Of a DNA stretch of 64,000 nucleotides, positions 25,901 to 48,670 are shown piece by piece. The DNA lies in assembly GCA_946902875.1 (NCBI GenBank), contig OX336341.1, positions 1,302,001 through 1,366,000 on the forward strand, read 5' to 3'. The DNA comes from Nematopogon swammerdamellus. Lineage: Eukaryota; Arthropoda; Insecta; Lepidoptera; Adelidae. Position numbers and translations under genes: made by a program. The notes below the pieces were generated by a model. The model ran no database searches and was not told the origin of the DNA. It was given only the letters and a program-made list of their open reading frames with translations. Each line of letters opens with the position of its first letter. Position 1 is the first letter of the stretch.

Positions 25901-28900
25901 GCGACACAAGTAAAAATCCCGTAGAAGTAGAAACAGTACCATACCGCCCCCGGACAAGAAACTGCAACCAAACCCAACCACCGCAAATGAAAACCACATT
26001 CGGTCAGCGTTTCAGTCTGTTCCTCGCGCCATATTTATATAATAACAAAGCAAGACTGTCGTGTGACTTTACACATAAACAAGGGAAAAGGCGCAAGGAC
26101 GCGATTCGAACTTGGCTTATTACCCTTAACTACAAGCAGACTGAAGACCTACTTGCTATAATTGGATAGCCATACTTAAAAATACATCTTTTTCATAACA
26201 CTTATTTCACTCATCATGCATGACACACACACGCACACCCTCACGCACGCACACACACCCTCTCACACACACACAAACCCACTCACTCACTCACACTCAC
26301 TCACTCACTCACTCACTCACTCACTCACTCACTCACCCACTCACTCACCCACTCACTCACCCACCCACTCACACACTCACTCACTCACTCACCCTCTCAC
26401 TCACTCACTCAATCTATCACTCACTCACTCACTCACTCACACCCACAAAAACCCACACTCTTTCACACACACACAAAAGGCTAAGCTTGTATTTTATGTG
26501 AATTGTATATATATGGTTTATTGATGCACGACTGAAACATGTAAGAATTATTTTTAATATTTATATTGATTTTAATTAAGGGCTTGATATTGTTGTAAAT
26601 TTTTTTTTTTTTTTCCTTTTATAATTTTATTCTATTTTATTTCTATAGTGTTCACTTCATTGTTGTCTAGATAAGCGCACAAATGTCTGCCTTATACTGT
26701 CAATAACTGCCTCTGCGAGACAGATAATTCTAGTGCAGAGCATATGTATAACAAAAAATGTGTGTTTAAAAAAATGAATAAATAAATAAATAAAAAAAAT
26801 AAATAAAAAGAGGAGAACACAACCGAGGCTGCTATGCGGCCATCTTACATCCAGTACGATGGTACCAACCCAGGCGGCTACAATTTGAGCCTACCACCTA
26901 GTAAGGGTTATTTATAATGGCTTTCTCCACACTACGCGTACTGGGCAGTGGATGCACCCCTATTCAATCGACCTACCGATAACCGATACCGACCTACCAT
27001 ATAATCAAACAACCGGTTCTGTAGGTATTTTATTTAGAGAACCGGGAAAATGTGGAACGCACTCCCTGCCCATCTATTTCCTCCCAAGTACAGCCTGTGG
27101 TTTTTCAAAAGGGGCGTGAAAAGGCTCCTGTCAGGCCGGCATGGCATTCGCAATCCCCGTGCATCACAGAATGTCCATGGGCATCGTTAGACAGCTACTT
27201 GTAGGTGAAACAATGTCACATGTCGCGCTATCCGTAAAACAAAATGGCAATAGTTATCCGATAGTACCTATTTTTAATTTGGACCAAAAGTCATAAGAAA
27301 ATTGCTGAAAATGGCTTGGAGTGCTGGGAGTAACTGTTGATGTGTGAGCATCACTCGCGAGGGTCACGTGTAGGGTTACCATGCATCCGTATTTAATTAG
27401 ACATGTCTGGATTTTCAGACTTCCGTCCGGACATTGTCCGGCTTTTGAATTGGTCTGGATTTATGATTTGGAAAAATTAAGAACGTATGTTTGATTTTTC
27501 GCATTAAAATACTTAAAAATAAAACAAATATTAAATACACACGTGCGATTTCTTATTTAATTTTGTGACTAAAATCTCTGTCTTTTTTTTATATCCGGCT
27601 TTTTGTCAGGACTTTTTAAGTTTCGAATGTCACATGTGATGTGTCACTAAATCGACACTCCAGCCCAAAAAATCCTCAGAGTCCCAGTATGATGTTTAGA
27701 TGTGTAGATATAATAAAAAATAGGTATTCTTGTCTCTTGGAAAACTTTAGCCCCAGGGCAGGCCTCACGCACTCTATGTACTTGCGCGCGCTAATATACC
27801 TATCGCCCGACGGGCCGCCGGCGGTCTTTTTCAGTACAAATTCGTCAGCCGCGCGAAGTATACATAGACGCTCGCCCACGCAACTGCGCGCAGCTGCAAA
27901 ACAATAAACACTTTACACTCGATCGTTAAGGTACATTTTCGCACGCAGCGATTGGCGATGTGAAACAGTAGGCTATTAAAGCCCGAAGGTAGGAACATTT
28001 TCTATGGAGTGATTTATCTGTTACGAAGTAACTATTAAGTAATCTGTGCCCAGGGGTTGTTAGCTTTGGCTATTATTGATGTATTTTGTTACATTAAATT
28101 TTAAGTTCATATTTAATTTACAACGTTAATAATTTGTTTATGTTTAAATCATAGAGAAATAATATTAATATTCCTTTATACCTACGTCTATGGTTTAAAT
28201 GTATAAAATTGTTTCCAGCTGCTGAAAGTTCTCAAAGGTTTAAATCCAGAGAAGATTTTGACCTTGGTGAGTAATAATAATCCACTGTACTTACCTATTT
28301 ATCATTTCAACCAATAGTACAATATAAAATAAATCTAAGTATGATTCAAACATTTTGTGATGTGATTGAATATTTCAATAAACATACAGTCCGCGCGCGA
28401 GCTCCGAGGAATCGGTTTTTGTGGAAATTAATTTATTATAGAATTTGTATAGAATTTTAATATTATACATTTGTATAATATTAAAATTCCGTACCGTGTG
28501 GAGCCGGTACTTAAAAAGAATATCCCCACTGCATCTCTCCCCATGCATGTCGTAAAAGGCGACTAAGGGATAAGGACAAGATGCCGTGCTAAAGGGCGAC
28601 AGGGTCGCCACCTCTCACCTTGGCACGGTACTTCCACTGAGTCATGCAGCAGGTGGGTCTTCGTGCCTTACTTTCTGCTTGATCGATTTAATCTTGTTCG
28701 AATACTTTGCGAAACGTGGTGGTCGGTGTTGTGCTGTAATTGACCAGAGTTCTTGCAGCACAACACCGATTACTCTGCTTACCCCGATTGTCGGGATTCA
28801 GCGTGTGTGATATGTATGTATATGTATGTATAATATTACTCGCCTAGTATAGTATAATCATCACAAAATGTGAATCTTCATAAAAATTCTATACAAATTC

Positions 28901-31900: not shown

Positions 31901-34900
31901 GGTCTTCGAATTTGAATTATCTGATATTTATTTATTTTACTATGTCATTGTTTTACACAGGTAAGGTCTCCATGTTTGCCCACTGACAGCTGTTACCATA
32001 GTAACGTCACTTTATTTTTTAAAAGTGATCTGTCAAACATCAAGCTTCTGAAAATTATTTTTTAGGAACGACCAAAAATTAAGAAGCGGCTATCTTTTAG
32101 AGAAGCCTCAATGAGGTCGATAGCACTTTACGGTGGGAAAATGACAGCACCTAACAATGCATGCAATGTATGAAAGCCGTTGGCGCCATCTGTTATTCAA
32201 TAGTGTGACTAATCTATTTTACAAAACGTTTCTTGTATGGGGGCCCCCCTTAATTTTTAACTTTATCTTATTTTTCTTATTTGTTGTTTCATCCGCCATA
32301 GTAACACATATTCTGTGAAAGTTTCAACCGGCTACCTATTACGGTTCAAGAGATACAGCCCTCGGACAGACGGACGGACGGACGGACGGACGACGGAGTC
32401 TTAGTAATAGGCTTCCGTCTGGTATACGGAAACCTAACAAATGTTTAGTTTTTTTTATTATTTTATTGTTTGATAAATAGTTTACTAATAGGGTTGATTG
32501 ACTTTCAGCCGAGTCACGAAAACGAAAGCTGAGCTCGACGTCTTGAGATACGTTGCCAAGGTGTCTTCGGACGCACACAAACAGGTGGGTATCCCACGGG
32601 GTTATTTTATTCTTTGTAGGGGCGTCTGTAGACTAGTATCTCCTAGTCTACAGGCATCCCTACAAAGAACTGAATAAAATATTTATTGAAAAGTCTAATG
32701 AAAAAGAAAAATTTGGGGTGGCATGCCGTACATGTAACTGGGGGATGAAAAAAAATATTCTATGCACATTGAATGAATGTTGCATGTGGGGTATCGTTGG
32801 ATAGGTCTTAAAAAATATAAATAAATTTAAAAATAACTTTTTGGTTTAAGTCAATATTTGGTGAGATAACCGCTTCTAAAGTCGTAAAAAGTGTGTTTTC
32901 TTGATTGACATCAGACACTGAGAGTATTATTACAGGGTATTATGGAGTTTTACAGAGTATTATAGAGTTTTACAGAGTATTATGGAGTTTTACAGAGTAT
33001 TATGAAGTTTTGCAGAGTATTATAGTGTTTTACAGAGTATTATGGAGTTTTACACAGTATTATAGAGTTTTGCAGAGTATTATGGAGTTTTACACAGTAT
33101 TATAGAGTTTTACAGAGTATTATGGAGTTTTACAGAGTATTATGAAGTTTTGCAGAGTATTATAGTGTTTTACAGAGTATTATGGAGTTTTACACAGTAT
33201 TATAGAGTTTTGCAGAGTATTATGGAGTTTTACACAGTATTATAGAGTTTTACAGAGTATTATGGAGTTTTACAGAGTATTATGAAGTTTTGCAGAGTAT
33301 TATAGTGTTTTACAGAGTATTATGGAGTTTTACACAGTATTATAGAGTTTTACAGAGTATTATGGAGTTTTACAGAGTATTATGAAGTTTTGCAGAGTAT
33401 TATAGTGTTTTACAGAGTATTATGGAGTTTTACACAGTATTATAGAGTTTTACAGAGTATTATGGAGTTTTACAGAGTATTATGAAGTTTTGCAGAGTAT
33501 TATAGTGTTTTACAGAGTATTATGGAGTTTTACACAGTATTATAGAGTTTTGCAGAGTATTATGGAGTTTTACACAGTATTATAGAGTTTTACAGAGTAT
33601 TATGGAGTTTTACAGAGTATTATGAAGTTTTGCAGAGTATTATAGTGTTTTACAGAGTATTATGGAGTTTTACACAGTATTATAGAGTTTTGCAGAGTAT
33701 TATGGAGTTTTACACAGTATTATAGAGTTTTACAGAGTATTATGGAGTTTTACAGAGTATTATGAAGTTTTGCAGAGTATTATAGTGTTTTACAGAGTAT
33801 TATGGAGTTTTACACAGTATTATAGAGTTTTGCAGAGTATTATGGAGTTTTACACAGTATTATAGAGTTTTACAGAGTATTATGGAGTTTTACAGAGTAT
33901 TATGAAGTTTTGCAGAGTATTATAGTGTTTTACAGAGTATTATGGAGTTTTACACAGTATTATAGAGTTTTGCAGAGTATTATGGAGTTTTACTGAGTAT
34001 TATGGAGTTTTACAGAGTTTTATGGAGTTTTACTGAGTATTATGGAGTTTTACAGAGTTTTATGGAGTTTTACAGAGTATTATGGAGTTTTACACAGTAT
34101 TATAGAGTTTTGCAGAGTATTATGGAGTTTTACTGAGTATTATGGAGTTTTACAGAGTTTTATGGAGTTTTACAGAGTATTATGGAGTTTTACACAGTAT
34201 TTTTTTTTAATTGTAAGCCCAACATATGGCCCCGAGGCACCCATGAGGTGTCTAACGGCGCCCATGGACATTCGGTCGTATTCGGGGGTTGCGAATGCCA
34301 TGCCGGCCTGACAGATGCCCCTCTTGAAGGACCCGAGACTGTACTTGGGGAATATATGAGCAGGGAGAGCGTTCCAAAGTTTACCGGTTCTGTAAAGGTT
34401 TGCAGAATCGATTGGTACGCATCCGCGCTAAGTCCAGCGTATAGGGATGCAATCCCTGCCCAGTGCGTGTGGTGCGGCGGTGGAAAGGGTACGGCGGGAT
34501 CGCGTTAAACAGCTCCTGTGAGCACTCCCCATGGAATAAGCGATAGAACACACTCAGGGAGCCGACATCCCTACGGTGTTGCAGTGGTTCTAGATCGCGG
34601 GATACTTCGGGTTCACCTACAAGTCGAGTTTTACAGAGTATTAATGAGTTTTACAGAGTATTATGGAGTTTTACAGAGTATTATGGATGTAGTAAGCTGA
34701 AATAAAAACATTAACAAAGTCCTATCAGAAAATGATCGAGCTACATCCCAACGAAGAATTTAATGAGAGACATGGAGATACCCCGGAGACTGAAAAGGAG
34801 GCTGCCGCAGGACAACCTTAACATCATTTAATGGAATTGTGACAGTGGTCACAAACCGTTCCGAGACAATAAAACAAAATCGACACAAAACATTTGGATA

Positions 34901-37900
34901 TCCCAACAAAGGGATAGGGGAATGAAATAGAGAAGTTTAAAAAAAAATGGATGTAGTAGATAGATAGAAATACTTTATTGCTCCAAAAAACCATTTTACA
35001 TAAACAAACAATAAGTAATTTACATGAGGGGCAAAGGCGGACTTATCCCTTACAGGCATTTCTCCCAATCAACCTTTGGATGTTTGAGAGTCGTATGTTG
35101 CGAGATATAAGTAGGTAGTAGCAAAAGACTTGAGTGTGGGGACCGTGTGTCTCAGTTAGGTGAAAGTGATTGTGCGTCTCAGGCAACGACATTCTACTTT
35201 CTGGACGGGCCCTCGTCATACATTTTACCGGTAGAAAGGTGCGATTGGAGTTCTTCTATATATTGCCAATATTTAAAACAGTGTAAGTGCGCGAGCGCCT
35301 CATACATCACGTTACGTTTCCGCTCTGTGAACGTCGATAGAGTAAGACGGTTAAATGGCAATTTGATGCGTATAAGGGAGACAACGATTGGAGAGTGTGC
35401 TGAATGCTCACAAATAGCGCGCCTCAATTCGGTGCGTTGTATGTCACTTCCCGATAATTTTTAATTCGTTGGTCTCAGGTGATGCTGTTCACGCGTCCGG
35501 GGAGGTCCGAGTACGAGTGCGAGTCTGTGTTCCTGGACCACTGCTACCGCGTCGGCGGCTGCCGTCACGTCTCCTACACCTGCATCTGCGGCTCCGGCCA
35601 CAACGGCGCGACACTACACTACGGGCACGCCGGAGCGCCTAACGTCAAGACTATACACGACGGTGACATGTGGTCAGTCTCGCGTCGATGCGATACAATT
35701 TTTTTTTTTTTTTTTTTATGGAAACTGACACGGTTGGTTACATCACCTACAACGTCCGTGATGTCAGCCCATAACACCGGGTGAACTAGGTGCCATGTCA
35801 GTGTGCTTCCCCCTTTGATCGTGCCGGCTACACTGAACTGGACGGAAAACACAAACTATTTACATAGCCGTTTCAACCGACGTTTCATTCAGTGCGGTGG
35901 TACCAACCCGGGCGGGTTAAACCCTACCACCCTACCACCTACCACAACTGTTGGTTTTCTTATTTCAGTAACTGGCTGCTTGTGCAATAGACGATAACGT
36001 CACGGTGATGGTAACATTGTCGCGTGAGTAGGCTAGGCAGCCAGCAACGGCCGGGGCCGGTACTTTAAAAGAATAGCCCCACTGCATCTCTCCCCGTGCA
36101 TGTCGTAAAAGGCGACTAAGGGATATGACTCCCTTCTTATATTACTAGGTGGTAGGGTTTAACCCGCCCGGGTTGTTACCACCGCACTGAATGAAAGAGG
36201 TTGAAAAACGACGACGACGTCGCTCGGCTTGCTTGTTGTGCGCAATTTGTGACAGGAAATTTTATTGTAATATTTAATAGTGTGTTATCGAGTGTTGTGT
36301 TTACCTATCATAGCGGAATGGGTGAGTTCGTTCCATTGTGCTTGCTGGCCTAGTTTGTCACGTATAATTATTATTATTATTTTTTTTTCTTGTTTCCGAA
36401 CTAGCTGGCTATGTGCGAGGTCGAAGCCTCAGGCGCAGCCAATATCACCCCCGAGGAGGTGCCAGTCCGGCTTGGAGCTGGACTAATGTCGCTGGGGAAA
36501 GGCTATTTACCCGCGATTTGAAGATCCGTGGATTGTAGGAGTGGCGAAAGATATTCCCCGGATGCCCGTTCCACACCTTTGCAGTGCGAGTGGCAACTGA
36601 CTGGTGGTCAAGCTTGTATACAAACAATATATTGTTTTATTTAAAGAATCGGAGTGGTGTGAAGGGAATACGTTTTGCTAGTTTCCCAAATGCATGATAG
36701 GTACATATCTTTTGTTTATTACACCCTGTCAAAGGAGGAATGGAAAGAACTGAGTAAAGAAGGCCACGTGATAATGAAAAAAGCAAAAGAGATCTACAAA
36801 AATCAAGAGGCAGAAATGGACTCAGAGACAAGTGAATCATCGGAGGGCACCAACGAACCAGACACAAGCAGCGAGCCGATCAGACGATGGTGCACCAGAA
36901 AACAGAAGAAAAGAAGAGAGAAGTTAATAACGCAGCAACGCTCATTCCAATCCCTATCCACATATTCCCATATTGGCTTCAGGCTGAAACATAAGCCGGT
37001 CGATTATTTCACTTTCTCACCCATCCTCGAGCGTGTCTTCCTAAAATCCTGAAAAATAAACACACCTCCTGGTGTCTTCGGTCTTACACCGTTGTGGGAG
37101 AACTCCCGGCTGGGAGGTGCTGCAAGTTCAATATTTAATAGTGTGTTATCTACTTACTTTCACGTTTACTTTTTGTACCGTGTGGGGCCGGTACTTTAAA
37201 AAGAATAGCCCCACTGCATCTCTCCCCGTGTATGTCGTAAAAGGCGACTAAGGGATATGACTCCCTTCTTATATTACTAGGTGGTAGGGTTTAACCAGCC
37301 CGGGTTGGTACCACCGCACTGAATGAAAGGTCGGTCGAAACGGCTATGTAAATAGTTTGTGTTTTCCGTCCAGTTCAGTGTAGCCGGCACTACCGAAGGG
37401 AAGGCTGACGTGGCACCAAGATCACCCGGTGTTATGGGCTGACATCACGGGTGATGTAGCCAACCGTGTCAGTTTCCATAAAAATAAAAAAACTTATTAT
37501 AAATAGGCATCAATGCAAGTAGGTAGGGTACACATTTTAGAAATGTAGACTTAATGTGGCCCGCGACTTGACAGCAAAACAATGATATGGCCCCTGGACC
37601 AAAAAGGTTGCCCATGCCTGTGTAATAGTGCCCTTTACAATGTACAGCTTGTTCGACATGGGCGGCAACTACGGTGGTTACGCGGCCGACATCACCTGCT
37701 CTTTCCCCGCCAACGGCAAGTTCACACCCGAGCAGAAGCTGGTGTACGAAGCTGTGCTCGCGGCCCGCAATGCTGTCATCAGGTATTTACTACGCCAGGT
37801 GTAATATGAAGGTCTGCCGAAGCAGCTTTATAGTCGGTTTATGGATGGCATTTGGCTTACCATGGTTTAAATTCGCGGTCACTGTGGCCGACGTTTCGGA

Positions 37901-40900
37901 CTGGCACGTGCATTCCATCATCAGGGCGAGTGCCTGGCTGCGGTCGGGCCCGCGGTTGACAGAACACTGCCTGTCAACCGCGAGCGGCTGCGAAGATTGT
38001 AGTTGCAGCTGTGGGTAGGCGCCAGTTCGGCTTGAGCTGCGTTCCGCACCTCCGTGGTAAGCCAAATACCATCCATAATATGGAATATCCATGGTGGACT
38101 AAAAGTATTTATAGTCGGTGTTTTCCGTCCAAGGGAACCGCTGACGTGGCACCTAGTGCCCACAGGAAACAAGGCGTGACGGGTATTATAGTAGGTGATG
38201 TAACCATACGCTAAAGTTAGATTGATTTTTATGTAATTCGGAGTCAGAGGCTAGGTCAGAGGGGCCAAAGCATATGCGACCAGCCAATAACACCTTATCA
38301 CCTCCGAGAAGGTAGGTGCCATAACAGTGGCTTCCTTTTGGATTGCTGGCTATACTGGACTAGAGGAGAACACAACCGAGGCTGCTATGCGGCCATCTTA
38401 CATTCAGTACGGCGATACCAACCCAGTCGGCTACAATTTGAGCCTACCACCTAGTAAGGGGCAAGGGAAGGGACCTACAGTTTTACACCGGTTCCGAACG
38501 GTGAAGCAGCAGGTGTAGGTATGCACGTCAATTATTCCATCAGAAAAAACTCATTTGGTACATGCCGACCGTATTCGAACCCCGGAGCTCTCGCAAGAGA
38601 AGCCGACGCCCAGACAACTCGGCCACTTACAACTTTTTTTTAGAAATACTCCACAAGATGTGGGTAGTTCATTTTTATTATTTTATTTTGCTGACCGGTG
38701 GTCACCGGTGGTATATTTTTTTATTATTATTGTATACTGATTTTAAATGTTTATTGTATTGTATTGTTTATTGATCATTCATATGGCAGTTAGACTGCGC
38801 TCGAACTTTTCACAATTTGTTCTATCCGGTTCGATTACACCCACGAAGACGAACCGACAAGAAACTTCGCAGTATTTAGTGACTAGCCACATAATAACGC
38901 CACCCATAGTCTATCGAAAACACAGCTTGAGAGCAAGATTAACAATTTTGCTGATAGTTGTGACTACAAAGACTTATTAATTAAGTGAATTAGGTGTAAA
39001 GAGCCTTTGTCAAACTTTGATACGTAATTTGTATCAACATAATTATGTTACTATATTAAACATACTACAATGTAGTATAATTTGTCATCTATATTGTTAT
39101 CTAGCGTGTTCTTTTATTATTTGTATTTATTTATTAACTTCTCGTCTTTGAATGAGTTTGTGGAGAGTACTTGGATGACATCATCGGGCAGTTCCTTCCA
39201 TTTGTCAACTATTCTGTTGCATAATAAGCGCTTTCGTGGATTTATTAAGCTTGAGGTTAAATTGACTCGAGTTGTGACCTCGGAGGTGACTATTTGCGTT
39301 CATTGTGAAGAGAGCTTTTAGTTCAGGACAATCATAGTGATGATTTTGTAGGTTTCTATTTTTTTTTATGGAAACTGACACGGTTGGCTACATCACCTAC
39401 ACCATCCGTGATGTCAGCCCATAACACCGGGTGAACTTGGTGCCACGTCAGTGCTTCCCTTCGGTCGTGCCGGCTACACTGAACTGGACGGAAAACACAA
39501 ACTATTTACATAGCCGTTTCGACCGACCTTACATTCAGTGCGGTGGTACCAACCCGGGCGGGTTAAACCCTACCACCTAGTAATATAAGAAAGGAGTCAT
39601 ATCCCTTAGTCGCCTTTTACGACATACACGGGGGGAGCTGCAGTGGGGCTGTTCTTTTAAAATACCGGCCCCACACGGTACATTTGAGCCTTTTATTTGA
39701 AAGTTGAATTATTACAGATTTCAGATTTCAGATTTATTTATTCATCTTTTGACACAAGGTGCCTCTCAGATAAGTCAATCAAACAAACAAAACATGGTAT
39801 AAATGAGACAAAATACAACAATACAAAAACAAACCATACAATTCTTAAAAAAGTTACAGATTCAACAAACAAAAATAACATATCATAAAATCAATTAAAT
39901 ACTTAAAGTAACAGTGAATCAATATTTTTTTTTGAGTATATGTAAATATTAACATTAATACAAAATTATTTATATGTGTCATTAAGGAATTCATCTATCG
40001 AGTAGTGAGAGTTTTTCATTAATAATTCTTTGATTCTGAATTGGAAAAAATTGTCACTATACTTTGAAAATGCAAGTGGAAGCTTGTTATAGAACTTAAC
40101 GCTCTGGCACAGGAATACTTCGGTCAATGCAGACTAACTTAAGAATGTGTTGTTGATAAAAGTGTGAGAGCCCCCCTTGTGTTGCAGCGCGGCGAAGCCT
40201 GGAGTGCTCTGGACTGATATGCACTTGACTGCAAATCGCGTGATGCTGACACACCTGCGGGGCGGAGGACTACTGAAGGGCGACGTGGAGGAGATGATTG
40301 AGGTTAGCGTTTACGAGTGTGTTAGCAGTTTACAAGTGTGTCAGCAGTTTACACAAGTGTGTTATCAGTTTACAAGTCTGTTAGCAGTTTACACAAGTGT
40401 GTTATCAGTTTACAAGTCTGTTAGCAGTTTACACAAGTGTGTTATCAGTTTACAAGTGTGTTAGCAGTTTACAAGTGTGTCAGAAGTTTACACAAGTGTG
40501 TTATCAGTTTACAAGTCTGTTAGCAGTTTACACAAGTGTGTTATCAGTTTACAAGTGTGTTAGCAGTTTACTCGGTAGTGAAAAGTGTGCCTGACTACCA
40601 AGTCAAGTCCATCAGTGTTTTTAATGGAAAATGTGATTTGCGGCATTGTTCCAACTACTCGAGTGACGCACGGGATTGCTAATGCCATGCTGGCATCAAA
40701 GGAGCCTTTTCTCTATGATTTTAAAAATCCCAGGTAGTACTCAAGAGGACCGCATTCTAGATTTTACTGATTTTGTTAATGATCTAATCTGAATGCTACC
40801 CATTATAGTTTGCCATCTTCTGCCTCCTGCAAGAAATATATTTGATTGGATTTATGTCAAAGAAAAGCTTTCTAAATTATGTTTTCATTCCAATATTACA

Positions 40901-43900
40901 TTAGGGGGACACCTGGGGTGGTTAGTCCACTTTAAAAATAGTTTGGTGTTCATCACAAGGCCGTCCCGCTTACATACACCCTGGCCGTTCTGTGGCCTTT
41001 GTGGGGGACATAGGCTGGCTGGGATAGCTGGAGCGTGTGCGCCGAGTCGAGTGAGCCGGTGCGTGAAGTCACAGATTACTTGATAGTTACTAAAATGTTG
41101 TGTCACCAGGCCGACATCCACGCGATCCTCCAGCCGCACGGTCTGGGACACTTCCTGGGGCTGGACGTGCACGACGTGGGCGGCTACCTGCCGAGCTGCC
41201 CGCCGCGGCCGGAGGCGCCCGGCCTGCACCGCCTGCGCACCGCGCGCCCCCTGCGCGCCAACATGGTACTCACTGTCGAGCCCGGCTGCTACTTCATAAC
41301 GCCCGTGAGTGCATACTTCCTAGGGCTGGACGTGCACGACGTGGGCGGCTGCACCCGCTGCGCACCGCGCGCCCCCTGCGCGCCAACATGGTACTCACAG
41401 TCGAGCCCGGCTGCTACTTCATAACGCGCGTGAGTACATACTTCCTGGGGCTGGACGTGCACGACGTGGGCGGCTACCTGCCGAGCTGCCCGCCGCGGCC
41501 GGAGGCGCCCGGGCTGCACCGCCTGCGCACCGCGCGCCCCCTGCGCGCCAACATGGTACTCACAGTCGAGCCCGGCTGCTACTTCATAACGCCCGTGAGT
41601 ACATACTTCCTGGGGCTGGACGTGCACGACGTGGGCGGCTACCTGCCGAGCTGCCCGCCGCGGCCGGAGGCGCCCGGCCTGCACCGCCTGCGCACCGCGC
41701 GCCCCTTGCGCGCCAACATGGTACTCACTGTCGAGCCCGGCTGCTACTTCATAACGCCCGTGAGTACATACTTCCTAGGGCTGAACGTGCACGACGTGGG
41801 CGGCTACCTGCCGCGGCCGGGGGCGCCCGGGCTGCACCCGCTGCGCACCGCGCGCCCCCTGCGCTCCAACATGGTACTCACAGTCGAGCCCGGCTGCTAC
41901 TTCATAACGCGCGTGAGTACATACTTCCTGGGGCTGGACGTGCACGACGTGGGCGGCTACCTGCCGAGCTGCCCGCCGCGGCCGGAGGCGCCCGGCCTGC
42001 ACCGCCTGCGCACCGCGCGCCCCCTGGCGCCAACATGGTACTCACAGTCGAGCCCGGCTGCTACTTCATAACGCCCGTGAGTACATACTTCCTAGGGCTG
42101 GAAGTGCACGACGTGGGCGGCTACCTGCCGAGCTGCCCGCCGCGGCCGGAGGCGCCCGGCCTGCACCGCCTGCGCACCGCGCGCCCCCTGCGCGCCAACA
42201 TGGTACTCACTGTCGAGCCCGGCTGATACTTCATAACGCCCGTGATTACATACTTCCTAGGGCTGGACGTGCACGACGTGGGCGGCTACCTGCCGCGGCC
42301 GGGGGCGCCCGGGCTGCACCCGCTGCGCACCGCGCGCCCCCTGCGCGCCAACATGGTACTCACAGTCGAGCCCGGCTGGTACTTCATAACGCGCGTGAGT
42401 ACATACTTCCTGGGGCTGGACGTGCACGACGTGGGCGGCTACCTGCCGAGCTGCCCGCCGCGGCCGGAGGCGCCCGGGCTGCACCGCCTGCGCACCGCGC
42501 GCCCCCTGCGCGCCAACATGGTACTCACAGTCGAGCCCGGCTGCTACTTCATAACGCGCGTGAGTACATACTTCCTGGGGCTGGACGTGCACGACGTGGG
42601 CGGCTACCTGCCGAGCTGCCCGCCGCGGCCGGAGGCGCCCGGGCTGCACCGCCTGCGCACCGCGCGCCCCCTGCGCGCCAACATGGTACTCACTGTCGAG
42701 CCCGGCTGCTACTTCATAACGCGCGTGAGTACATACTTCCTCGGGCTGGACGTGCACGACGTGGGCGGCTACCTGCCGAGCTGCCCGCCGCGGCCGGAGG
42801 CGCCCGGGCTGCACCGCCTGCGCACCGCGCGCCCCCTGCGCGCCAACATGGTACTCACTGTCGAGCCCGGCTGCTACTTCATAACGCGCGTGAGTACATA
42901 CTTCCTCGGGCTGGACGTGCACGACGTGGGCGGCTACCTGCCGAGCTGTCCGCTGCGGCCGGAGGCGCCCGGGCTGCACCGCCTGCGCACCGCGCGCCCC
43001 CTGCGCGCCAACATGGTACTCACAGTCGAGCCCGGCTGCTACTTCATAACGCGCGTGAGTACATACTTCCTCGGGCTGGACGTGCACGACGTGGGCGGCT
43101 ACCTGCCGAGCTGCCCGCCGCGGCCGGAGGCGCCCGGGCTGCACCGCCTGCGCACCGCGCGCCCCCTGCGCGCCAACATGGTACTCACTGTCGAGCCCGG
43201 CTGCTACTTCATAACACGCGTGAGTACATACTTCCTCGGGCTGGACGTGCACGACGTGGGCGGCTACCTGCCGAGCTGCCCGCCGCGGCCGGAGGCGCCC
43301 GGCCTGCACCGCCTGCGCACCGCGCGCCCCCTGCGCGCCAACATGGTACTCACAGTCGAGCCCGGCTGCTACTTCATAACGCGCGTGAGTACATACTTCC
43401 TCGGGCTGGACGTGCACGACGTGGGCGGCTACCTGCCGAGCTGCCCGCCGCGGCCGGAGGCGCCCGGGCTGCACCGCCTGCGCACCGCGCGCCCCCTGCG
43501 CGCCAACATGGTACTCACTGTCGAGCCCGGCTGCTACTTCATAACACGCGTGAGTACATACTTCCTCGGGCTGGACGTGCACGACGTGGGCGGCTACCTG
43601 CCGAGCTGCCCGCCGCGGCCGGAGGCGCCCGGGCTGCACCGCCTGCGCACCGCGCGCCCCCTGCGCGCCAACATGGTACTCACAGTCGAGCCCGGCTGCT
43701 ACTTCATAACGCCCGTGAGTACATACTTCCTGGGGCTGGACGTGCACGACGTGGGCGGCTACCTGCCGAGCTGCCCGCCGCGGCCGGAGGCGCCGGGCTG
43801 CACCGCCTGCGCACCGCGCGCCCCCTGCGCGCCAACATGGTACTCACTATCGAGCCCGGCTGCTACTTCATAACACGCGTGCATGACTACTAGGTTTTTT

Positions 43901-46900
43901 TTTTTTTGAAACTGACACGGTTGGCTACGTCACCTACAACGTCCGTGATGTCAGCCCATAACACCGGGTGAACTAGGTGCCATGTCAGTGCTTCCCCCTT
44001 TGCCGTGCCGGCTACACTCAACTGGTCGGAAAACACAAACTACATAGCCATTTCGACCGACGTCGTTTCATTCAGTGCGGTGGTATCAACCCGGGCGGGT
44101 TAAACCCTAGCACCAAGTAAGATTAGGACGGAAGGGACCTACAGTTTTATGAGGAATCCGAGCCTCGGTCAGCCTCCAATGGTCAGCGGTCACCCATCCA
44201 AGTACTGACCGCGCCCAGCGTTGCTTAACATTCAATATGCGACAGTTGACTGTCTGCAACACTAAGCTATCGAGGCCAGGTGCCCGGGATTTCCGGGATT
44301 GTCCCGGGCTAGGCTCCAATGTCCCGTGTCCCGGGTAAAGGAACATTTTGTCCCGGAGAGTGTAATTTGTCTCAGGAAGAAAAATATGTTTGTACACACG
44401 ACTTGACATCGCGCAAAGAAGCCGGCGAACAGAAGTCCAGATGCTGATAAATTACTCAAATTAGGATCACAAGAAATATGAATAATTAATGTAAAGAAAG
44501 ATTCTACTTTCATTTTCGTGTAGTGCAATAACTAAAGTTATTTGCTAGGAAGGTGTGGATCTAAGCTTGCGATGGCTTCACCGAACATATCCGGGCCCAT
44601 CGGCAGTAGAGGAGGGTGTTAATCGAGGTCGGGACTAGCGAGTGGCCACTCTAAATTTCCCGCGCATGCTTCACGTTTCAGCTCGCATCAAGCCCTCGTC
44701 AGCTAGTCTGCGTTGACTAGGACGCGGGGAAACCACCAGTCCCGCTCTCGACGTCCCTCTCTCTACCTATCCATATTCTGTAGGATGCTTCCAGTGACGT
44801 TTTCGAAGCTCTCTCCATATATGAGCTTAGCGTCGATCTTGGCAGCCCTAGATTCTTGAAGAGACTGTAGAGCGACTTCGCTGGTAGTCCTCTTGCTCCG
44901 ACTTCCACAGCGAAGAGATCAGTCTTGAATCCGTTTCTCACAATGCGGTCTACTAAGTTGCAGTACTTGTTAAGTTTGATGTTGTGGTCCTTCGGTATGT
45001 TACTTTCCCATGGAACTGTAAGTTCAACAAGTACTACATGCTTTGTCGCTTTTGAGAATATGAGTATATCCGGTCTTAATGCTGTGGTACAGATTTCCGA
45101 AGGCATTTGGCAATGCTTCTCATGTGTGTCCATCAAGAATTCCCACTAACAAAAAACACTAAAAGTTCGCCGTAAAAATTATAACAAAAAATATTGTCTT
45201 ATACATTTTTGCACCTTATTTGTGAAGGACTGCACTTAGTACATATGTCCCGGGAAGGCTAACATCAGATCTGGCAAGCCTAGTGAGTACACACTCACTG
45301 CTCGCTCGACAATCGATCAATCAGCCTCGATAGCTCAGCGGTGCAGACTGTCGGCTGTCGCTATTGATGGTTAAGCAACGCTGGGCGCGGTCAGTATTTG
45401 GATGGGTGACCGCTTCGACCGTTGGGAGGCTGACCGTGGTTCGTATTCTACGTAAAACTGTAGGTTCCTTCCCTTCCTACCTTACTCGGTGGTAGGGTTC
45501 AACCCGCCCGGATTGGTAAGTTCATGGACCACCATGCGGTCACAGTATCGTTGAATTCGTAGTGCTTTTAAATAAGAACCAACCTCACTGGCGATGGCGC
45601 TCTTGCCCGGGCCCAGGACCAAACTTTCGCTGACATTTTCTGTCTATTCTAATCTAACTAAACCTAGAACTACGTCTGTCCAGATATCCGGCTATCCGGC
45701 CCGCGTACAGGCCAGATATCCGGTATCCGGCCAATCCACTATCCGTTGCAACACTAGTAATAATACAAATGCAATGTGACTGCGCAGCTGCTGGACGCGG
45801 CGCTGGCGAGCCCGCGGCAGGCGCGCTTCTTCAACGTGGAGGCGCTCGCTCGCTACCGGGGGCTCGGCGGCGTGCGCATCGAGGACGACGTACTCATCAC
45901 CGAAGACGGCGTCGAGAACTTCACGTTCGTGCCGAGGACGTTAGTTATACCTCTCTCCAATACTTGTATTATCTTTTTTTTTTATGGACAACGACTCGGT
46001 TGTCTACATCACATACAACATCCGTGATGTCAGCCCATAACACCGGGTGTACTTGGTGCCATGTCAGTGCTTCCCTTCGGTCGTGCCGGCTACACTGAAC
46101 TGGACGGAAAACACAAACTATTTACGTAGCCGTTTCGACTGTCGTTTCATTCAGTGCGGTGGTACCAACCCGGGCGGGTTGCACCCTACCACCTAGTAAG
46201 GTAAGAAGGGAAGGGACCTACAGTTTTACGTGGAATCCGAACCACAGTCAGCCTCCAAAGGTCGAGGGGTCACCCATCCAAGTACTGACCGGGCCCAGCG
46301 TTGCTTAACAATCAATAGCGACAGTTGACTGTCTGCACCACTGAGCTATCGAGGCTGTACACATCCGAATGACCTTTTTTCCATTTATCCACCTCTCACC
46401 TTGGCGCGGTCCTTCCACCGAGTCATGCAGCAGCTGCCTCACTTGCTGCTTGATAGTTATCTTGTCCTAATACATTGCTAAACGTGGTGGTCGGTGTTGT
46501 GCTGTAATTCACAAGAGTACTTGCAGCACAACACTGATTACTCTGCTTACCCAGATAATAGATCTGTCCATTTTTAATCCTTGTCAAGCTGTGACAATTA
46601 GATAGGAACTGAACTGGAACATTAGATCTGAACGACGACGAGACGAAGACACAATGGGAGCATAGGGGAACACTGACAGACATGCATGGCACCTAGTCCC
46701 GACTGAATCAAGGTGTCGTGGGCTGACATTTGTATTAGGTCACGGATGTATTAGGTCATATTGTCTAACACTGTCAGGTACCATAAAAACATTAAAAAAA
46801 AACGGCCAAGCGAGTCGAACCCTCGGTTACGTATCGCCATGTCATTAGCGCCACTCACGCCATCTATGGCGTGTTTATGAAATGCTTCATATTAGTTAAA

Positions 46901-48670
46901 ATTCATGATTAGTTAAAATGCTTCATACTCTTTTCGGTAGATGGTGCGCGCTCCATCCACTTACACTTTTTAGTTTCTTCTATCTATGGGAAGGGAACCC
47001 TGTGAATTTTTTACTTTTTCTTATTTGTTGTTATATCGGCCATAATAACACATATTCTGTGAAAATTTCAACTGGCTACCTAATAAGCAGACATCGGAAT
47101 CCGCGGGGCACGAATACGACCTTGTTAGGGATTGACTACGGCGATCAATAAACAATCGACACTGTTATCGATACTCATATTTATTTGTTTATTTTATTTT
47201 ATTCATGTCATATTTCAGACCTGAATACTTATATACCTACAGTACTTATATAAACATGTATACTTTATGTTAACGATTAAGTAAACATAATACATATTTA
47301 TATAAGGTCTTTCAAAATTAGTTCATAGTACGCTAAGGGGGGGTTCTGTATCATATAGGGAGTAAAACCTATATAAAAATTTTTGGACCTTGGGCTTTTT
47401 TTAAGTAAAAAATTTTTTTATGTAGGTATTTAAATAAAAAAATAGCTGGTTGATTTTTATAACCTAATCGATTCAGTTTCATAACAGTAACAAAAAAGTC
47501 TTCATGACCATTATGACGTAACACGTGTAAGTTGGTAAAAAAAATTAAATTCTTTCTATTCCATACTAATAAAACTAAAATAGTGGTTTTTCACAATTTC
47601 TGAAAGAAAGAGATATACGTGTTAGAAGACTTTTTTGTTCCTAGCACGAAACCGAAACGATTAAGAAAAATTTTTTTTTTACATTTACCATTAAAAAAAA
47701 AAATTTTGTGAAAAAAAAATTCTTTGTTCCTCAAAAGTGATCTATTTCCGATACAGAACCCCCCCTTAGCTTACTATGAACTAATTTTGTAAGACCTATT
47801 TTTTTGGACCTTGGCCTTTTTTTTTTTATGTAAAATATTTTTTTATGTGTTTAAATAAAAAAATTGGTGGTTGATTTTTATAGCCTAATCGATTCAGTTT
47901 CATAACAGTAACAAAAAAGTCTTCAATATCATTATGATGTAACACGTGTAAGTTGGTAAAAAAAATCAAATTCTTTCTATTCCATACTAATAAAACTAAT
48001 ATTGTGGTTTGAACAGGTTTGTATTGTACCTACAAAGTAAATACAACACTTGTTTATTATATCTTATTTTCTATAGAAATACTCTTAGTTTTAATAATCG
48101 ACATTATTTCATATTATTCTAAAATAACGATCGATTTTCGATATTTGTGGATACATTGTCCCATCACTAAACAACCTTGAATCATTCGTGCCCCGCGGAT
48201 TCCGATGTATGCTAATAAGGTTCAAGAGATACAGCTCTCGGACAGACGGACGGACAGACAGACAGACAGACAGACGGCGTAGGCTTAGTAATAGGGTCCC
48301 GCACCAGATACGGAACCCCAAAAACATGGAATTTTATAATATTAGCATTTTTGAAAATAAAAACGACATAAAATTTTGTTTTTGTATTTATTCCATCAGT
48401 TTGAAATTTGTGGCAAAATAAAATTTTATTCTGAAGGGTTTATACATTTTCATGTAATAAATAATACATTGATAATGTTTTCTTAAACTATGTATGTTAT
48501 TCTGAGATCACAAATTCTTCTTAGATACTAAGAAAAAAAAAATCTACAAAACCGCAAAACTCTTGATCTTTGATTTTTGTAGATGTACATATTATATATT
48601 TTGCTTTCATTGCAGTGTAAAGGAGATCGAAGACTTCATGGCGAACGGCGCTAACTTCAAGAATAATTAA
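22803..48670 (+). CDS. PEPD: Prolidase (Xaa-Pro dipeptidase), whole gene
   Basis: Prolidase is a cytosolic M24 metallopeptidase that cleaves dipeptides with C-terminal proline or hydroxyproline. Twelve coding exons join in frame through GT-AG introns: 22803-22973, 25342-25533, 28219-28266, 29131-29192, 29593-29637, 32509-32584, 35479-35672, 37648-37782, 40188-40302, 41110-41304, 45788-45939, 48616-48670. They total 1440 nt and 479 residues; animal prolidases are about 490. All five metal ligands are visible: Asp266 (LFDMGG), Asp277 (ADIT), His356 (PHGLGH), Glu403 (TVEPG) and Glu443 (GVRIED). The start ATG (aagATGt) lies 10 nt after a good acceptor (ctctctctgcag), so a 5' non-coding exon upstream is likely; its position is unknown. 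AATAAA signals lie at 48744 and 48751. Introns are full of repeats, including arrays derived from the donors of exons 9 and 10. Confidence 0.95.
23219..23525 (-). mobile_element. Interspersed repeat family B, inverted copy
   Basis: Starts with the inverted terminus tcccgacaatcagggtaagc and ends with ccggccccacacggtac. It lies in PEPD intron 1, in opposite orientation to the copy just upstream of exon 1. Confidence 0.75.
23790..24176 (-). mobile_element. SINE family A, full-length
   Basis: Oligo-T, then tatggaaactgacacggttg, through tagtgcttcc and the accctaccaccaagtaag midpoint, to the head with the inverted 5S-like stretch (cacccatccaagtactgacc) and agctatcgaggctgac. Head-to-tail length is about 380 bp. 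Confidence 0.85.
24180..24395 (-). pseudogene. Jockey-like LINE RT fragment
   Basis: The minus strand reads [37 protein letters not shown], a segment typical of the region after the RT domain in jockey-type LINEs (SYGI..WGTA..SN...RFQSK.LR.I). It is short and bounded by other repeats. Confidence 0.55.
24418..24590 (+). pseudogene. LINE ORF2 C-terminal zinc-motif fragment
   Basis: Reads [20 protein letters not shown], the Cys-Cys-His-Cys motif that follows RNase H in I-group LINEs. It is in opposite orientation to the fragment at 24180. Dead piece. Confidence 0.5.
24745..25215 (-). pseudogene. CR1/jockey-like LINE 3' end fragment
   Basis: Minus strand encodes [38 protein letters not shown] and [20 protein letters not shown], the standard LINE ORF2 C terminus, leading to an oligo-A tail at the left end (seen as oligo-T at about 24750). 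Related tails lie at 31310, 34200 and 36375. Confidence 0.65.
25342..25533 (+). CDS. PEPD: PEPD coding exon 2
   Basis: Residues 58-121: [15 protein letters not shown] ... [15 protein letters not shown] ... [11 protein letters not shown], the conserved N-domain core. Acceptor ctgtcag, donor GAG|gtgagt, phase 0 at both ends. Confidence 0.95.
25712..26808 (+). mobile_element. 5'-truncated LINE inserted in repeat C
   Basis: Coding part 25714-26169 begins [20 protein letters not shown] and continues [34 protein letters not shown] to a stop at 26167. This is the C-terminal end of ORF2 in a CR1/Daphne-like LINE. The 3' UTR contains the long cact microsatellite and ends in aaataaataaa repeats. Only the last roughly 150 codons remain, so it cannot be active. 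Confidence 0.75.
26217..26480. repeat. CACT/CACA microsatellite
   Basis: Almost pure cactcactcact and cacacac words over about 260 bp, within the 3' UTR of the truncated LINE. It creates long but meaningless open frames. Confidence 0.9.
27000..27200 (+). pseudogene. LINE C-terminal fragment
   Basis: Plus strand reads [20 protein letters not shown] and [15 protein letters not shown], the usual WNxLP...FK motif of a LINE ORF2 C terminus, within PEPD intron 2. Confidence 0.5.
27378..28218. other. Intronic spacer, possible hAT remnant
   Basis: A stretch beginning agggttaccatgcatccgta with several tccgg words at 27378-27620 resembles hAT-type termini, but no partner end or duplication could be fixed. 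27750-27950 is a GC-rich patch with no exon. The rest is AT-rich up to the exon 3 acceptor. Confidence 0.35.
28219..28266 (+). CDS. PEPD: PEPD coding exon 3 (48-bp micro-exon)
   Basis: Residues 122-137, [16 protein letters not shown]. Acceptor gtttccag, donor TTG|gtgagt, phase 0. Length and position agree with the linker before GVNTDSG. Confidence 0.9.
28387..28954. mobile_element. TA-flanked MITE with long inverted repeats, split by repeat B
   Basis: The ends cagtccgcgcgcgagctccg (28387) and its reverse complement (to 28954) start arms of about 78 bp with few mismatches (28387-28465 and 28877-28954). TA lies on both sides (28385-28386 and 28955-28956), as expected for Tc1/mariner-type insertion. 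A family B copy occupies the loop. Confidence 0.8.
28492..28808 (+). mobile_element. Interspersed repeat family B inside a MITE
   Basis: Begins ccgtgtggagccggtactta and runs through cgtgccttactttctgcttg to cttaccccgattgtcgggat. It lies between the two arms of the 28387-28954 MITE, so it inserted later or was carried along. Confidence 0.75.
29131..29192 (+). CDS. PEPD: PEPD coding exon 4
   Basis: Encodes [20 protein letters not shown] plus two bases of the next codon. Acceptor cccttttcag, donor GA|gtaagt. Confidence 0.93.
29593..29637 (+). CDS. PEPD: PEPD coding exon 5 (45-bp micro-exon)
   Basis: Completes the split Asp codon, then encodes [14 protein letters not shown]. Acceptor tcttttccag, donor CT|gtgagt. 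Phases match the neighbouring exons. Confidence 0.9.
29745..29890 (+). mobile_element. LINE-like repeat fragment, second copy
   Basis: gtcagtcagcgtgtaagcgt then ctgctggacatacgcctctc, matching 6630-6740 and extending further right (ttccgccgacgcacttaatg). Just before it (29655-29740) is a related cggacataggcctcttccaa piece. Confidence 0.55.
29990..30390 (-). mobile_element. Interspersed repeat family X, inverted copy
   Basis: Contains the inverted phrases tctgtccgtccgtccgtccg, ggctgtatctcttgaaccgt, cacagaatatgtgttactat and ctccgtgcgcgagtaaaact. It is the reverse complement of parts of the copy at 31803-32440 in the same intron. Confidence 0.7.
30786..31010. repeat. Large imperfect hairpin, arms about 90-100 bp
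   Basis: The arm aagcccttacccttaaaaag ... ggagtcgggggaccgctaag is mirrored by cttagccgttccctgactcc ... ctttttaagggtcggggttt. It looks like a fold-back MITE lying between two inverted family X copies. Confidence 0.65.
31305..31745 (-). pseudogene. LINE ORF2 C-terminal fragment
   Basis: The minus strand carries [40 protein letters not shown] and [11 protein letters not shown], then an A-rich tail (oligo-T at 31291-31322). It is very similar to 36374-36600. It is 5'-truncated, as is usual for LINE copies. Confidence 0.7.
31803..32440 (+). mobile_element. Interspersed repeat family X, longest copy
   Basis: Begins aaaaaatctgttaagtgcga, gttttactcgcgcgcggag; includes tttcttgtatgggggccccc, gtttcaaccggctacctatt and acggttcaagagatacagcc; ends in a ggac microsatellite and tatacggaaacct. 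It is an uninterrupted reference for the copy split by the element at 47088-48211. Confidence 0.65.
32509..32584 (+). CDS. PEPD: PEPD coding exon 6
   Basis: Encodes [20 protein letters not shown] then DAHKQ, the start of the catalytic M24 domain. Acceptor actttcag, donor CAG|gtgggt. Confidence 0.93.
32921..34686. repeat. 20-bp minisatellite with 100/140-bp higher-order structure
   Basis: The monomer tatggagttttacagagtat varies at a few positions. Named by variant, the order is A B A C D E F (140 bp) or A C D E F (100 bp), repeated many times from about 33041 to 33960, then less regular. The array is broken by a LINE tail at 34200-34625 and resumes for about three monomers. It lies in PEPD intron 6. 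Confidence 0.92.
34200..34625 (-). pseudogene. LINE tail inserted in the minisatellite
   Basis: Oligo-T at the left end, then sequence whose minus strand reads [20 protein letters not shown] followed by [13 protein letters not shown], a typical LINE ORF2 C terminus. It separates the main array from its last monomers, so the insertion is younger than most of the array. Confidence 0.65.
34960..35075 (-). mobile_element. LINE 3' UTR fragment
   Basis: gatagatagaaatactttat then tgctccaaaaaaccatttta, ending near tcaacctttgga. Phrases like 'tactttattg ... caaaggcggacttat' are common LINE 3' ends in Lepidoptera; compare 49275-49400. Confidence 0.45.
35479..35672 (+). CDS. PEPD: PEPD coding exon 7
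   Basis: Encodes [38 protein letters not shown] and the IHDGDM motif before the first metal Asp. Acceptor ggtctcag, donor TG|gtcagt. Confidence 0.95.
35697..35936 (-). mobile_element. SINE family A without its head
   Basis: An oligo-T run starts 25 bp after the exon 7 donor. The body (tatggaaactgacacggttg ... gcgggttaaaccctaccacc) is complete, but the copy stops at the tail/head junction. Confidence 0.8.
36048..36200 (+). mobile_element. Chimeric SINE (B head, A tail), 3'-truncated
   Basis: The first part ggccggtactttaaaagaat ... aaaggcgactaagggat is the family B end. It is followed directly by the atgactcccttcttatatta linker and the family A tail (taggtggtagggtttaaccc ... actgaatgaaag). 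Same arrangement as 37170-37490 and 39360-39682. Confidence 0.75.
36374..36600 (-). pseudogene. LINE ORF2 C-terminal fragment
   Basis: Same family as 31305-31745: the minus strand reads [20 protein letters not shown] and [12 protein letters not shown]. It ends in oligo-T at the left. Confidence 0.65.
36660..37055 (+). other. Unrecognised 125-codon ORF between repeats
   Basis: An open frame from 36675 to 37052 encodes a Lys/Glu/Ser-rich, hydrophilic sequence ([20 protein letters not shown]). I recognise no domain. It lies inside PEPD intron 7 between two chimeric SINEs, has no splice context, and may be part of an unidentified mobile element. Confidence 0.2.
37170..37490 (+). mobile_element. 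Chimeric SINE (B head, A tail), full-length
   Basis: Starts taccgtgtggggccggtact, passes through ggcgactaagggatatgact into aggtggtagggtttaaccag, and ends gtcagtttccataaaaataa. The tail is the family A tail; the 5S-like head is absent. Confidence 0.85.
37648..37782 (+). CDS. PEPD: PEPD coding exon 8 (two metal-binding Asp)
   Basis: Encodes [20 protein letters not shown]; Asp266 and Asp277 are the expected dinuclear metal ligands, with the 11-residue spacing typical of prolidases. Acceptor tgtacag, donor AG|gtattt. Confidence 0.95.
38090..38220 (+). mobile_element. Diverged SINE family A tail
   Basis: Weak but ordered matches: gtgttttccgtccaagggaa, ctgacgtggcacctagtgcc, gtaggtgatgtaacca. An older copy than its neighbours. 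Confidence 0.45.
38228..38515 (-). mobile_element. Interspersed repeat family C, uninterrupted copy
   Basis: Runs from ttatgtaattcggagtcaga through gattgctggctatactggac and gaggagaacacaaccgaggc to ttacaccggttccgaacg. It serves as the empty-site version of the copy disrupted at 25712-26808. Confidence 0.7.
39105..39345 (-). pseudogene. LINE ORF2 C-terminal fragment
   Basis: The minus strand reads [32 protein letters not shown], stop; a WxxLPxxV...SFK ending typical of LINE ORF2. It is truncated on the 5' side. Confidence 0.55.
39360..39682 (-). mobile_element. Chimeric SINE (B head, A tail), inverted full copy
   Basis: Oligo-T, tatggaaactgacacggttg, through aaaccctaccacctagtaat, ataagaaaggagtcatatcc and cttagtcgccttttacgaca to ccggccccacacggta. 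Reverse complement of the 37170-37490 element. Confidence 0.85.
39705..40135 (-). pseudogene. LINE ORF2 C terminus plus 3' UTR
   Basis: The minus strand encodes [43 protein letters not shown] and a stop near 39975. An AT-rich 3' UTR continues to about 39712. It stops about 50 bp short of PEPD exon 9. Confidence 0.65.
40188..40302 (+). CDS. PEPD: PEPD coding exon 9
   Basis: Encodes [20 protein letters not shown] and [14 protein letters not shown]. Acceptor gttgcag. The donor GAG|gttagc is weak and is itself the first monomer of the intronic array that follows. Confidence 0.93.
40303..40575 (+). repeat. 19/21-bp array seeded at the exon 9 splice donor
   Basis: About 14 monomers. The first, gttagcgtttacgagtgt, is the 5' splice site of PEPD intron 9. 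Later ones read gttagcagtttacaagtgt (19 nt) or gttatcagtttacaagtct, with 21-nt forms containing ttacacaagtgt, giving a roughly 40-bp pair repeated several times. Each gttagc repeats the donor hexamer. Confidence 0.9.
41110..41304 (+). CDS. PEPD: PEPD coding exon 10 (metal-binding His and Glu)
   Basis: Encodes ADIHAILQP, then [17 protein letters not shown] and [14 protein letters not shown]; His356 and Glu403 are metal ligands. Acceptor tgtcaccag, donor CCC|gtgagt, phase 0. The last 153 bases plus the first 12 of the intron are the founder unit of the 17-copy array. Confidence 0.95.
41152..43890 (+). repeat. 17-copy array of partial exon 10 plus its splice donor
   Basis: Units begin (at ttcctNgggctgg) at 41152, 41317, 41442, 41607, 41772, 41925, 42089, 42254, 42407, 42572, 42737, 42902, 43067, 43232, 43397, 43562 and 43727. 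The standard length is 165 bp: 153 bp of exon 10 ([12 protein letters not shown] ... [10 protein letters not shown] plus one codon) and gtgagtacatac of the intron. Units 2, 5, 6 and 8 are 125, 153, 164 and 153 bp. Fifteen units keep GTGAGT; unit 7 has gtgatt and unit 17 gtgcat. Units 1-9 form three trimers in which the middle unit is always the short one; units 12-16 alternate as dimers. No unit carries the exon acceptor or the HGLGH codons. Confidence 0.95.
43892..44276 (-). mobile_element. SINE family A, full-length
   Basis: Begins at the last unit of the prolidase array (actaggtttttttttttgaa) and ends aagctatcgaggcc. The inverted 5S-like segment tcacccatccaagtactgac is intact. Confidence 0.85.
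44548..45136 (-). pseudogene. Retroelement C terminus with an endonuclease-like motif
   Basis: The minus-strand ORF from 45136 to 44717 (139 codons) contains [20 protein letters not shown] followed by LTVPWE, then [20 protein letters not shown]. The PD...(x13)...ELT pattern resembles a PD-(D/E)XK restriction-like nuclease fold, as in the C termini of some non-LTR elements. The end ([20 protein letters not shown], then a 3' tail to 44548) is shared with 50361-50655. No RT is present upstream, so it is 5'-truncated. Confidence 0.55.
45326..45514 (+). mobile_element. SINE family A, head with pol III boxes only
   Basis: Reads gcctcgatagctcagcggtg (A-box-like), gttaagcaacgctgggcgcg and tatttggatgggtgaccgct (5S-like), then gaccgtggttcgtattc (B-box-like). 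Truncated after acccgcccggattggtaa. Confidence 0.85.
45788..45939 (+). CDS. PEPD: PEPD coding exon 11 (last metal-binding Glu)
   Basis: Encodes [39 protein letters not shown] and FTFVPR; Glu443 in VRIED is the fifth ligand. Acceptor gcgcag, donor AC|gttagt. Joins YFITP to LLDAAL exactly where prolidases are continuous. Confidence 0.95.
45970..46358 (-). mobile_element. SINE family A, full-length
   Basis: Starts about 30 bp into PEPD intron 11 (oligo-T, tatggacaacgactcggttg) and ends tgagctatcgaggctg. All parts of the family are present in order. Confidence 0.85.
46388..46556 (+). mobile_element. Interspersed repeat family B, right half
   Basis: Begins ccacctctcaccttggcgcg, includes aaacgtggtggtcggtgttg and ends gattactctgcttacccaga. 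The left half of the family is missing. Confidence 0.7.
46680..46793 (+). mobile_element. Diverged SINE family A tail
   Basis: catgcatggcacctagtccc, tgtcgtgggctgacatttgt and aggtaccataaaaacattaa keep the order of the family A tail. It runs straight into family X. Confidence 0.5.
46794..48330 (+). mobile_element. Interspersed repeat family X, split by a hAT-like element
   Basis: Left part ggccaagcgagtcgaaccct ... actggctacctaataag (to 47087) and right part ggttcaagagatacagctct ... cagatacggaacccc (from 48220) become continuous when 47088-48211 and one copy of ctaataag are removed. That matches the uninterrupted copy at 32335. Confidence 0.7.
47088..48211. mobile_element. hAT-like non-autonomous element, 1124 bp
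   Basis: Terminal inverted repeats of 28 bp (cagacatcggaatccgcggg ... at the left; catacatcggaatccgcggg ... on the other strand at the right) differ at one base. The 8-bp duplication ctaataag flanks it at 47080-47087 and 48212-48219. Inside are two direct copies of about 200 bp (47380-47590, 47803-48008; gattttataacctaatcgat words) and a second inverted pair (47306-47355 against 47750-47803). No transposase is encoded. Confidence 0.82.
48616..48670 (+). CDS. PEPD: PEPD coding exon 12 and stop
   Basis: Encodes [17 protein letters not shown] and TAA. Acceptor cattgcag. Polyadenylation signals AATAAA follow at 48744 and 48751. Confidence 0.93.

Follow-up and report, generated by a model that had tools for sequence, protein, structure and literature searches.

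The prolidase exon 10 of Nematopogon swammerdamellus is followed directly by further copies of its own 3′ end, each carrying the position of the 5′ splice site. This locus raises the question of which donor is joined to the next exon, and whether the extra donors bear on the output of the enzyme. A preliminary description of the window (the whole 64,000-nt stretch of DNA analysed here) had read the copies as a row of competing 5′ splice sites, with donor choice as a possible dose switch.

The prolidase gene and the array behind exon 10

The window carries a gene that had been described as prolidase (PEPD), and this identity was borne out by homology and by an intact 12-exon model. The features of the gene are as follows.

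22803..48670, plus strand: coding region of prolidase (PEPD, Xaa-Pro dipeptidase), 12 coding exons, 479 aa, ATG to TAA, frame intact
22803-22973, 25342-25533, 28219-28266 and 29131-29192, plus strand: coding exons 1–4, AG/GT borders
29593-29637, 32509-32584, 35479-35672 and 37648-37782, plus strand: coding exons 5–8, AG/GT borders
40188..40302, plus strand: coding exon 9, placed by homology and splice joining
41110..41304, plus strand: coding exon 10, 195 bp, phase 0 at both ends, placed by homology, splice sites and phase
45788..45939, plus strand: coding exon 11, with the acceptor common to all donors
48616-48670, plus strand: coding exon 12, stop codon included

The 12 joined exons gave 479 aa without an inner stop. 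When a version of prolidase lacking two exons then unplaced was used as the query, the best 36 database matches among the 120 listed of 5270 were lepidopteran where named and showed 70–76% identity. Protein matches at E ≤ 0.01 in the assembly numbered at least 26, and all lay inside the prolidase gene (28 candidates were scored for protein and one for unit DNA). The unit DNA, searched for in the 39 contigs of the 699-Mb assembly, matched at this place alone (at least 18 matches; very common words were skipped). Neither a second prolidase nor dispersed copies of the unit were found in the 699-Mb assembly, the counts being lower bounds. With a single prolidase found, this copy is presumably the one on which the insect relies, and donor 1 must be chosen sufficiently often.

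Directly 3′ of exon 10, the following features were assigned to the array.

41152, 41317, 41442, 41607, 41772, 41925, 42089, 42254 and 42407, plus strand: starts of units 1–9
42572, 42737, 42902, 43067, 43232, 43397, 43562 and 43727, plus strand: starts of units 10–17
41305..41316, plus strand: intron part of unit 1, with the live 5′ splice site CCC/GTGAGTGC and 12 intron bases
41317..41441, plus strand: unit 2, with a frame-shifting 40-bp deletion, a stop at 41422-41424 and a donor at 41430
41442..43726, plus strand: units 3–16, from the alignment of the array units
41595, 41760, 41913, 42077, 42242 (broken, GTGATT), 42395 and 42560, plus strand: donors of units 3–9
42725, 42890, 43055, 43220, 43385, 43550 and 43715, plus strand: donors of units 10–16
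43727..43886, plus strand: unit 17, with a 1-bp deletion, GTGCAT at the donor position and the end of the array

Unit alignment and TRF confirmed the head-to-tail row that had been described. It consists of 17 units between 41152 and ca. 43886, each made up, as claimed, of the 3′-terminal 153 bp of coding exon 10 and the first 12 bp of the intron. TRF reported a single row of period 165 at 41347-43881 (15.5 copies, 95% matches, score 4580), far above chance. The 17 units thus share one period and high identity, as those of a minisatellite do. The counts of 17 units and 15 GTGAGT donors given before also stood, with the qualification that both totals include the live exon and its donor; unit 1 is the live exon, and the extra copies number 16. 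Unit length is 165 bp in 12 of units 1–16, and the shorter units are unit 2 (125 bp, −40), units 5 and 8 (153 bp, −12 each) and unit 6 (164 bp, −1). In unit 17, the exon part is one base short and the end is unrelated intron. GTGAGT is intact in 15 of the 17 units, the live donor included, and is replaced by GTGATT in unit 7 and by GTGCAT in unit 17. The live donor reads gtgagtGcatac, and units 2–16 carry gtgagtAcatac except for unit 7 (gtgattacatac). By eye, a T-rich stretch adjoining the end of the array at unit 17 looks like another at ca. 45970.

Products, strength and surroundings of the donors

Each of the 17 donors was joined in silico to the acceptor at 45788. Donor 1 (41305) gave the 479-aa prolidase, while donors 2–17 all gave 450 aa without the residues contributed by exons 11 and 12. 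The endpoint of reading for donors 2–17 was the TAA at 41422-41424. This confirmed both that only donor 1 yields prolidase and that the 40-bp deletion of unit 2 leads into a stop ahead of that unit's donor. The predicted stop precedes the last exon junction by 157 to 2606 nt, so that use of any of donors 2–17 would place an early stop upstream of a junction, as at a poison site. A full-length unit is frame-neutral (165 bp, or 55 codons, with the donor in phase 0), and only the 40-bp deletion in unit 2 and the single-base deletions in units 6 and 17 break the frame.

The strength of the donors was estimated from U1 pairing. The 14 intact extra donors paired at −7.2 kcal/mol and donor 1 at −6.9, with the two broken donors at −1.8 and −0.6. 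As 14 of the 16 extra copies thus equal or surpass donor 1 in U1 pairing, the donors could in principle compete. The part of the earlier reading that spoke of competing sites therefore agrees with the near-equal strengths, whereas the regulatory dose switch built on it is unsupported, as set out below.

The window holds 4,038 GT sites, of which 4.3% pair as well as or better than donor 1. Fifteen such sites, donor 1 among them, fall in the stretch 41305-43886, compared with 5, 3, 6, 5, 18, 9, 8 and 5 in eight other 2.58-kb stretches of the gene, which are mostly intron, in some cases include an exon or a real donor, and form two overlapping neighbouring pairs. The donor count of the array is at the high end yet inside the range of the gene, and exceeds seven of the eight other stretches. 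What distinguishes the array donors above all is their copied exon context. The GC content of the array (0.706) is close to that of exon 10 (0.728), and there is no downstream GC contrast to mark the exon end.

We scored the 179 AG sites in 41305-45786 with a profile built from the 12 acceptors of the gene itself and hence biased towards them. A single array AG, at 42261 in unit 8, passed the weakest real acceptor (5.8 vs 5.5), and the next array sites reached 3.8. The claim that the units lack the acceptor thus held against the acceptor profile, save for this marginal site. Five AG sites 3′ of the array, within 44376-45684, scored like real acceptors (5.5–14.1), namely 44682 at 8.7 and 44703, 45057, 44795 and 45684 at 5.5–6.3. 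Judged by these scores, cryptic acceptors between the array and exon 11 could compete too. They are not part of the unit, which therefore does not bring the pair of donor and acceptor expected of intron gain. Nor are the copies complete exons with acceptors of their own, as mutually exclusive exons would be; the units hold 153 of the 195 exon bases, and the original acceptor is absent.

TTCCTAG occurs in four units (2, 5, 7 and 8) and CACAG in nine. Cassette exons formed from units were considered and rejected: array AGs other than 42261 score under the weakest real acceptor, and by length arithmetic exons of either type would shift the frame. A coding repeat protein was likewise rejected. Long open frames, such as that of 548 aa at 42227-43873, are not confined to one frame or one strand (658 aa on the plus and 528 aa on the minus strand), as GC-rich DNA would give. 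A search with the 548-aa frame returned 467 proteins, and the 120 listed were prolidase-like (best 85 bits, 9–29% query coverage). Among these listed matches, with candidates limited to 0.55–1.75 times the query length, there was no sign of a many-copy relative of the frame.

Variation among the units and growth of the array

To compare units, we counted substitutions in the first 156 columns plus one difference per large deletion, and ran 20 lag tests with uncorrected P values. Units three apart were more alike than expected from shuffled order. With the live exon counted, the mean difference at lag three was 2.71 against 5.11 in units 1–10 (P = 0.009) and 3.21 against 4.63 in units 1–17 (P = 0.003). 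With unit 1 left out, it was 3.00 against 5.30 in units 2–10 (P = 0.022), and units 2–17 gave P = 0.006. A weaker two-unit period was seen at the right of the array (lag two, units 10–17, 2.00 against 2.74, P = 0.036). The live exon differs from units 4 and 6 by one substitution each in the first 156 columns and by two over the whole unit. In the four-gamete test, 7 of 28 informative site pairs failed, as expected from exchange between units. None of these failures depended on unit 1, and the test does not show exchange or conversion from the array to the live exon. The pattern fits repeated unequal exchange in blocks of two and of three units, in which the live exon stands first.

GC-biased conversion of exon 10 was rejected as an account of its composition: its GC3 is 0.92, but exon 11, which is free of an array, has 0.94. 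Faster evolution of exon 10 was rejected as well, its mean identity to nine Lepidoptera (74%) being not unusual beside that of the other exons (61–86%). At positions that do not vary among the same nine Lepidoptera, however, exon 10 has more departures than any other exon (5 of 45).

The exon parts of the units carry 18 distinct substitutions, of which 8 were synonymous against 6.2 expected (P = 0.25) with a unit-9-like reference. The variation among units is thus of the unconstrained kind expected in a minisatellite, in a small sample. In the donor core, one change was found in units 1–16, as read off the variant table, against 0.7 expected; unit 17 was excluded from this count because the array ends inside it, and with this terminal unit the changes number three. 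No sign of constraint on the reading frame or the donor core was seen among the 17 units and 18 differences, numbers at which weak selection could be missed.

As a base rate, TRF was run on the 10-kb stretch at 3.00–3.01 Mb in 18 large contigs. In 11 of these 18 samples it reported rows with a period of at least 100, some of these rows being multiples of a shorter unit and four stretches carrying one common repeat family. Two arrays with such a period had at least 10 copies (L022 and L029). Tandem amplification of such size is common in this genome, and one array starting at an exon end would therefore be unsurprising as a mutational event. A unit of ca. 68 bp (GAAGAAAGTAAGTAACTAAGGGCGAGGCCG...) was arrayed in four of the 18 stretches (L017, L021, L025 and L026; consensus matched by eye), and it includes the donor-like word GTAAGTAA.

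Donor choice, related systems and neighbouring features

We consider it likely that the row is a tolerated, neutral array of minisatellite or satellite type, and that exon definition favours donor 1. A chance tandem duplication spanning the 3′ end of exon 10 and its donor would have seeded it, and block-wise expansion, in which the live exon took part, would have followed. At an early stage, full-length copies would have left the frame undisturbed with any choice of donor, and this may have eased the establishment of the array. The spliceosome would pair the exon 10 acceptor with the nearest downstream donor, donor 1, and the 14 other intact donors would mostly be removed as intron, with at worst a low-level leak of premature-stop transcripts. 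The choice of donor 1 by exon definition is expected because both introns flanking exon 10 are long (807 and 4,483 nt) and the exon is then 195 nt, whereas splicing from donor 2 would lengthen it to 320 nt and from later donors further still.

The upstream-donor rule applied here derives from human data. In that study, near-equal donors between long introns (>250 nt) show a preference for the upstream site; the preference among near-equal donors is 60% overall. Five minigenes built with two identical strong donors all used the upstream one alone (PMC9225289). The same study gives ca. 60% of human events as favouring the downstream donor when no strength filter is applied, and reports that weak donors in large exons lead to exon skipping (PMC9225289). 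Further observations count against the neutral array with donor 1 chosen by exon definition. The array donors pair slightly better than donor 1 with nearly identical upstream exon context, and the array is as exonic in GC as exon 10, with its 15 well-pairing GTs topping seven of the eight stretches.

A rival reading is an unregulated leak, in which splicing from several donors at low to moderate rates would make the array a slight burden and reduce prolidase output. Near-equal donor strengths, nearly identical exon context and exon-like GC throughout the array speak for it. We nevertheless regard such a leak as unlikely, given that the sole prolidase gene found presumably must stay expressed and that the exon-definition rule points to donor 1 (PMC9225289).

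It is improbable, though conceivable, that the live exon is the first unit of an evolving satellite and shares its variants, that donor 1 competes with 14 equal donors, and that the functional fraction of the mRNA tracks array length. If true, the locus would be a natural copy-number-tunable splicing system.

Donor choice as a dose switch, in which use of donors 2–16 gives early-stop mRNAs in a proportion that sets the prolidase level, appears highly improbable. Each of the 16 alternative donors does lead to the stop at 41422 and to a 450-aa product without the part from exons 11 and 12, 14 of them match donor 1 in U1 pairing, and the major non-functional isoform of TERT reportedly needs nine or more copies of an intronic 38-bp tandem repeat (PMC3948165). 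However, the variation among units looks neutral and, within the low power of the test, neither the donor core nor the units show conservation beyond expectation. In units 7 and 17 the donor is broken. Equally well-pairing GTs lie elsewhere in the gene, mostly in smaller numbers and in one stretch in larger, and the upstream rule favours donor 1 (PMC9225289).

Inflation of the copy number by misassembly is very unlikely, considering that the window contains no N, that 18 of the 20 contigs inspected measure 21.9–31.2 Mb (two are small), which makes the assembly chromosome-scale, that the array spans merely 2.7 kb, that units 13 and 15 are the sole pair without a mutual substitution difference, and that the three-unit pattern is regular.

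Minisatellite and satellite arrays with higher-order structure consist of head-to-tail units, grow in blocks and show exchange-like site patterns. The prolidase array shares all three features. What sets it apart is that its unit derives from part of a conserved enzyme exon, with the functional exon counted among the units. A satellite-like array can thus take in a conserved exon end and keep that end as a unit.

Tandem duplication across a splice border is already known, as in the potato RdRp gene, where splicing signals were copied together with exon sequence (PMC4974935). The potato duplication spans the boundary between intron 1 and exon 2, and it supplied an acceptor and so a new intron (PMC4974935). 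The prolidase array, by contrast, lies on the donor side, has 16 extra copies and holds no original acceptor in its unit. The intron 6 VNTR of TERT is similar in being an array within an intron of a gene whose splicing may be affected. Its repeats lie more than 1 kb from the exon borders and act by RNA pairing (PMC3948165); the prolidase units copy an exon end, and any effect of theirs would be that of donors. The minigenes with two identical donors resemble the present locus in identical donors, one acceptor and an exon-defined context (PMC9225289), but the prolidase case differs in being natural, in having ca. 15 donors rather than two, and in carrying C instead of G at position −1. The locus therefore offers a natural test of donor choice, with ca. 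15 donors in near-identical exon context facing one acceptor, against two engineered sites in the minigenes. Among the open-licence papers listed by word-match searches, no title or abstract opening reported an array of an exon end plus its donor.

A second array begins at the first intron base after exon 9.

40303..40571, plus strand: array of 19–20 bp units (GTTAGCAGTTTACAAGTGT), found by TRF

The unit holds no exon sequence, and the 13 additional donor-like copies are accordingly weak partners of U1 (−0.6 to −1.7, vs −5.7 for the real site). Two neighbouring prolidase introns, 9 and 10, thus begin with arrays at their donors. No known RNA family reached the gathering score at 38000-49000.

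In intron 10, a 142-aa open frame lies at 44717-45145 on the minus strand, and its last ca. 40 residues recur with one change at the end of an open frame at 50067-50486 on the plus strand. This shared tail is probably an interspersed repeat. Downstream of prolidase on the minus strand, a 418-aa open frame at 54401-55657 has what we take, by eye, to be ankyrin-like repeats, and open frames of 1249 and 384 aa at 56114-61008, also on the minus strand, presumably correspond to ORF2 and ORF1 of a non-LTR retrotransposon, which they resemble. Intron 6 carries a further array at 32930-34201, with a 20-bp unit (TTACAGAGTATTATGGAGTT) and a higher-order period of 140 bp by TRF.
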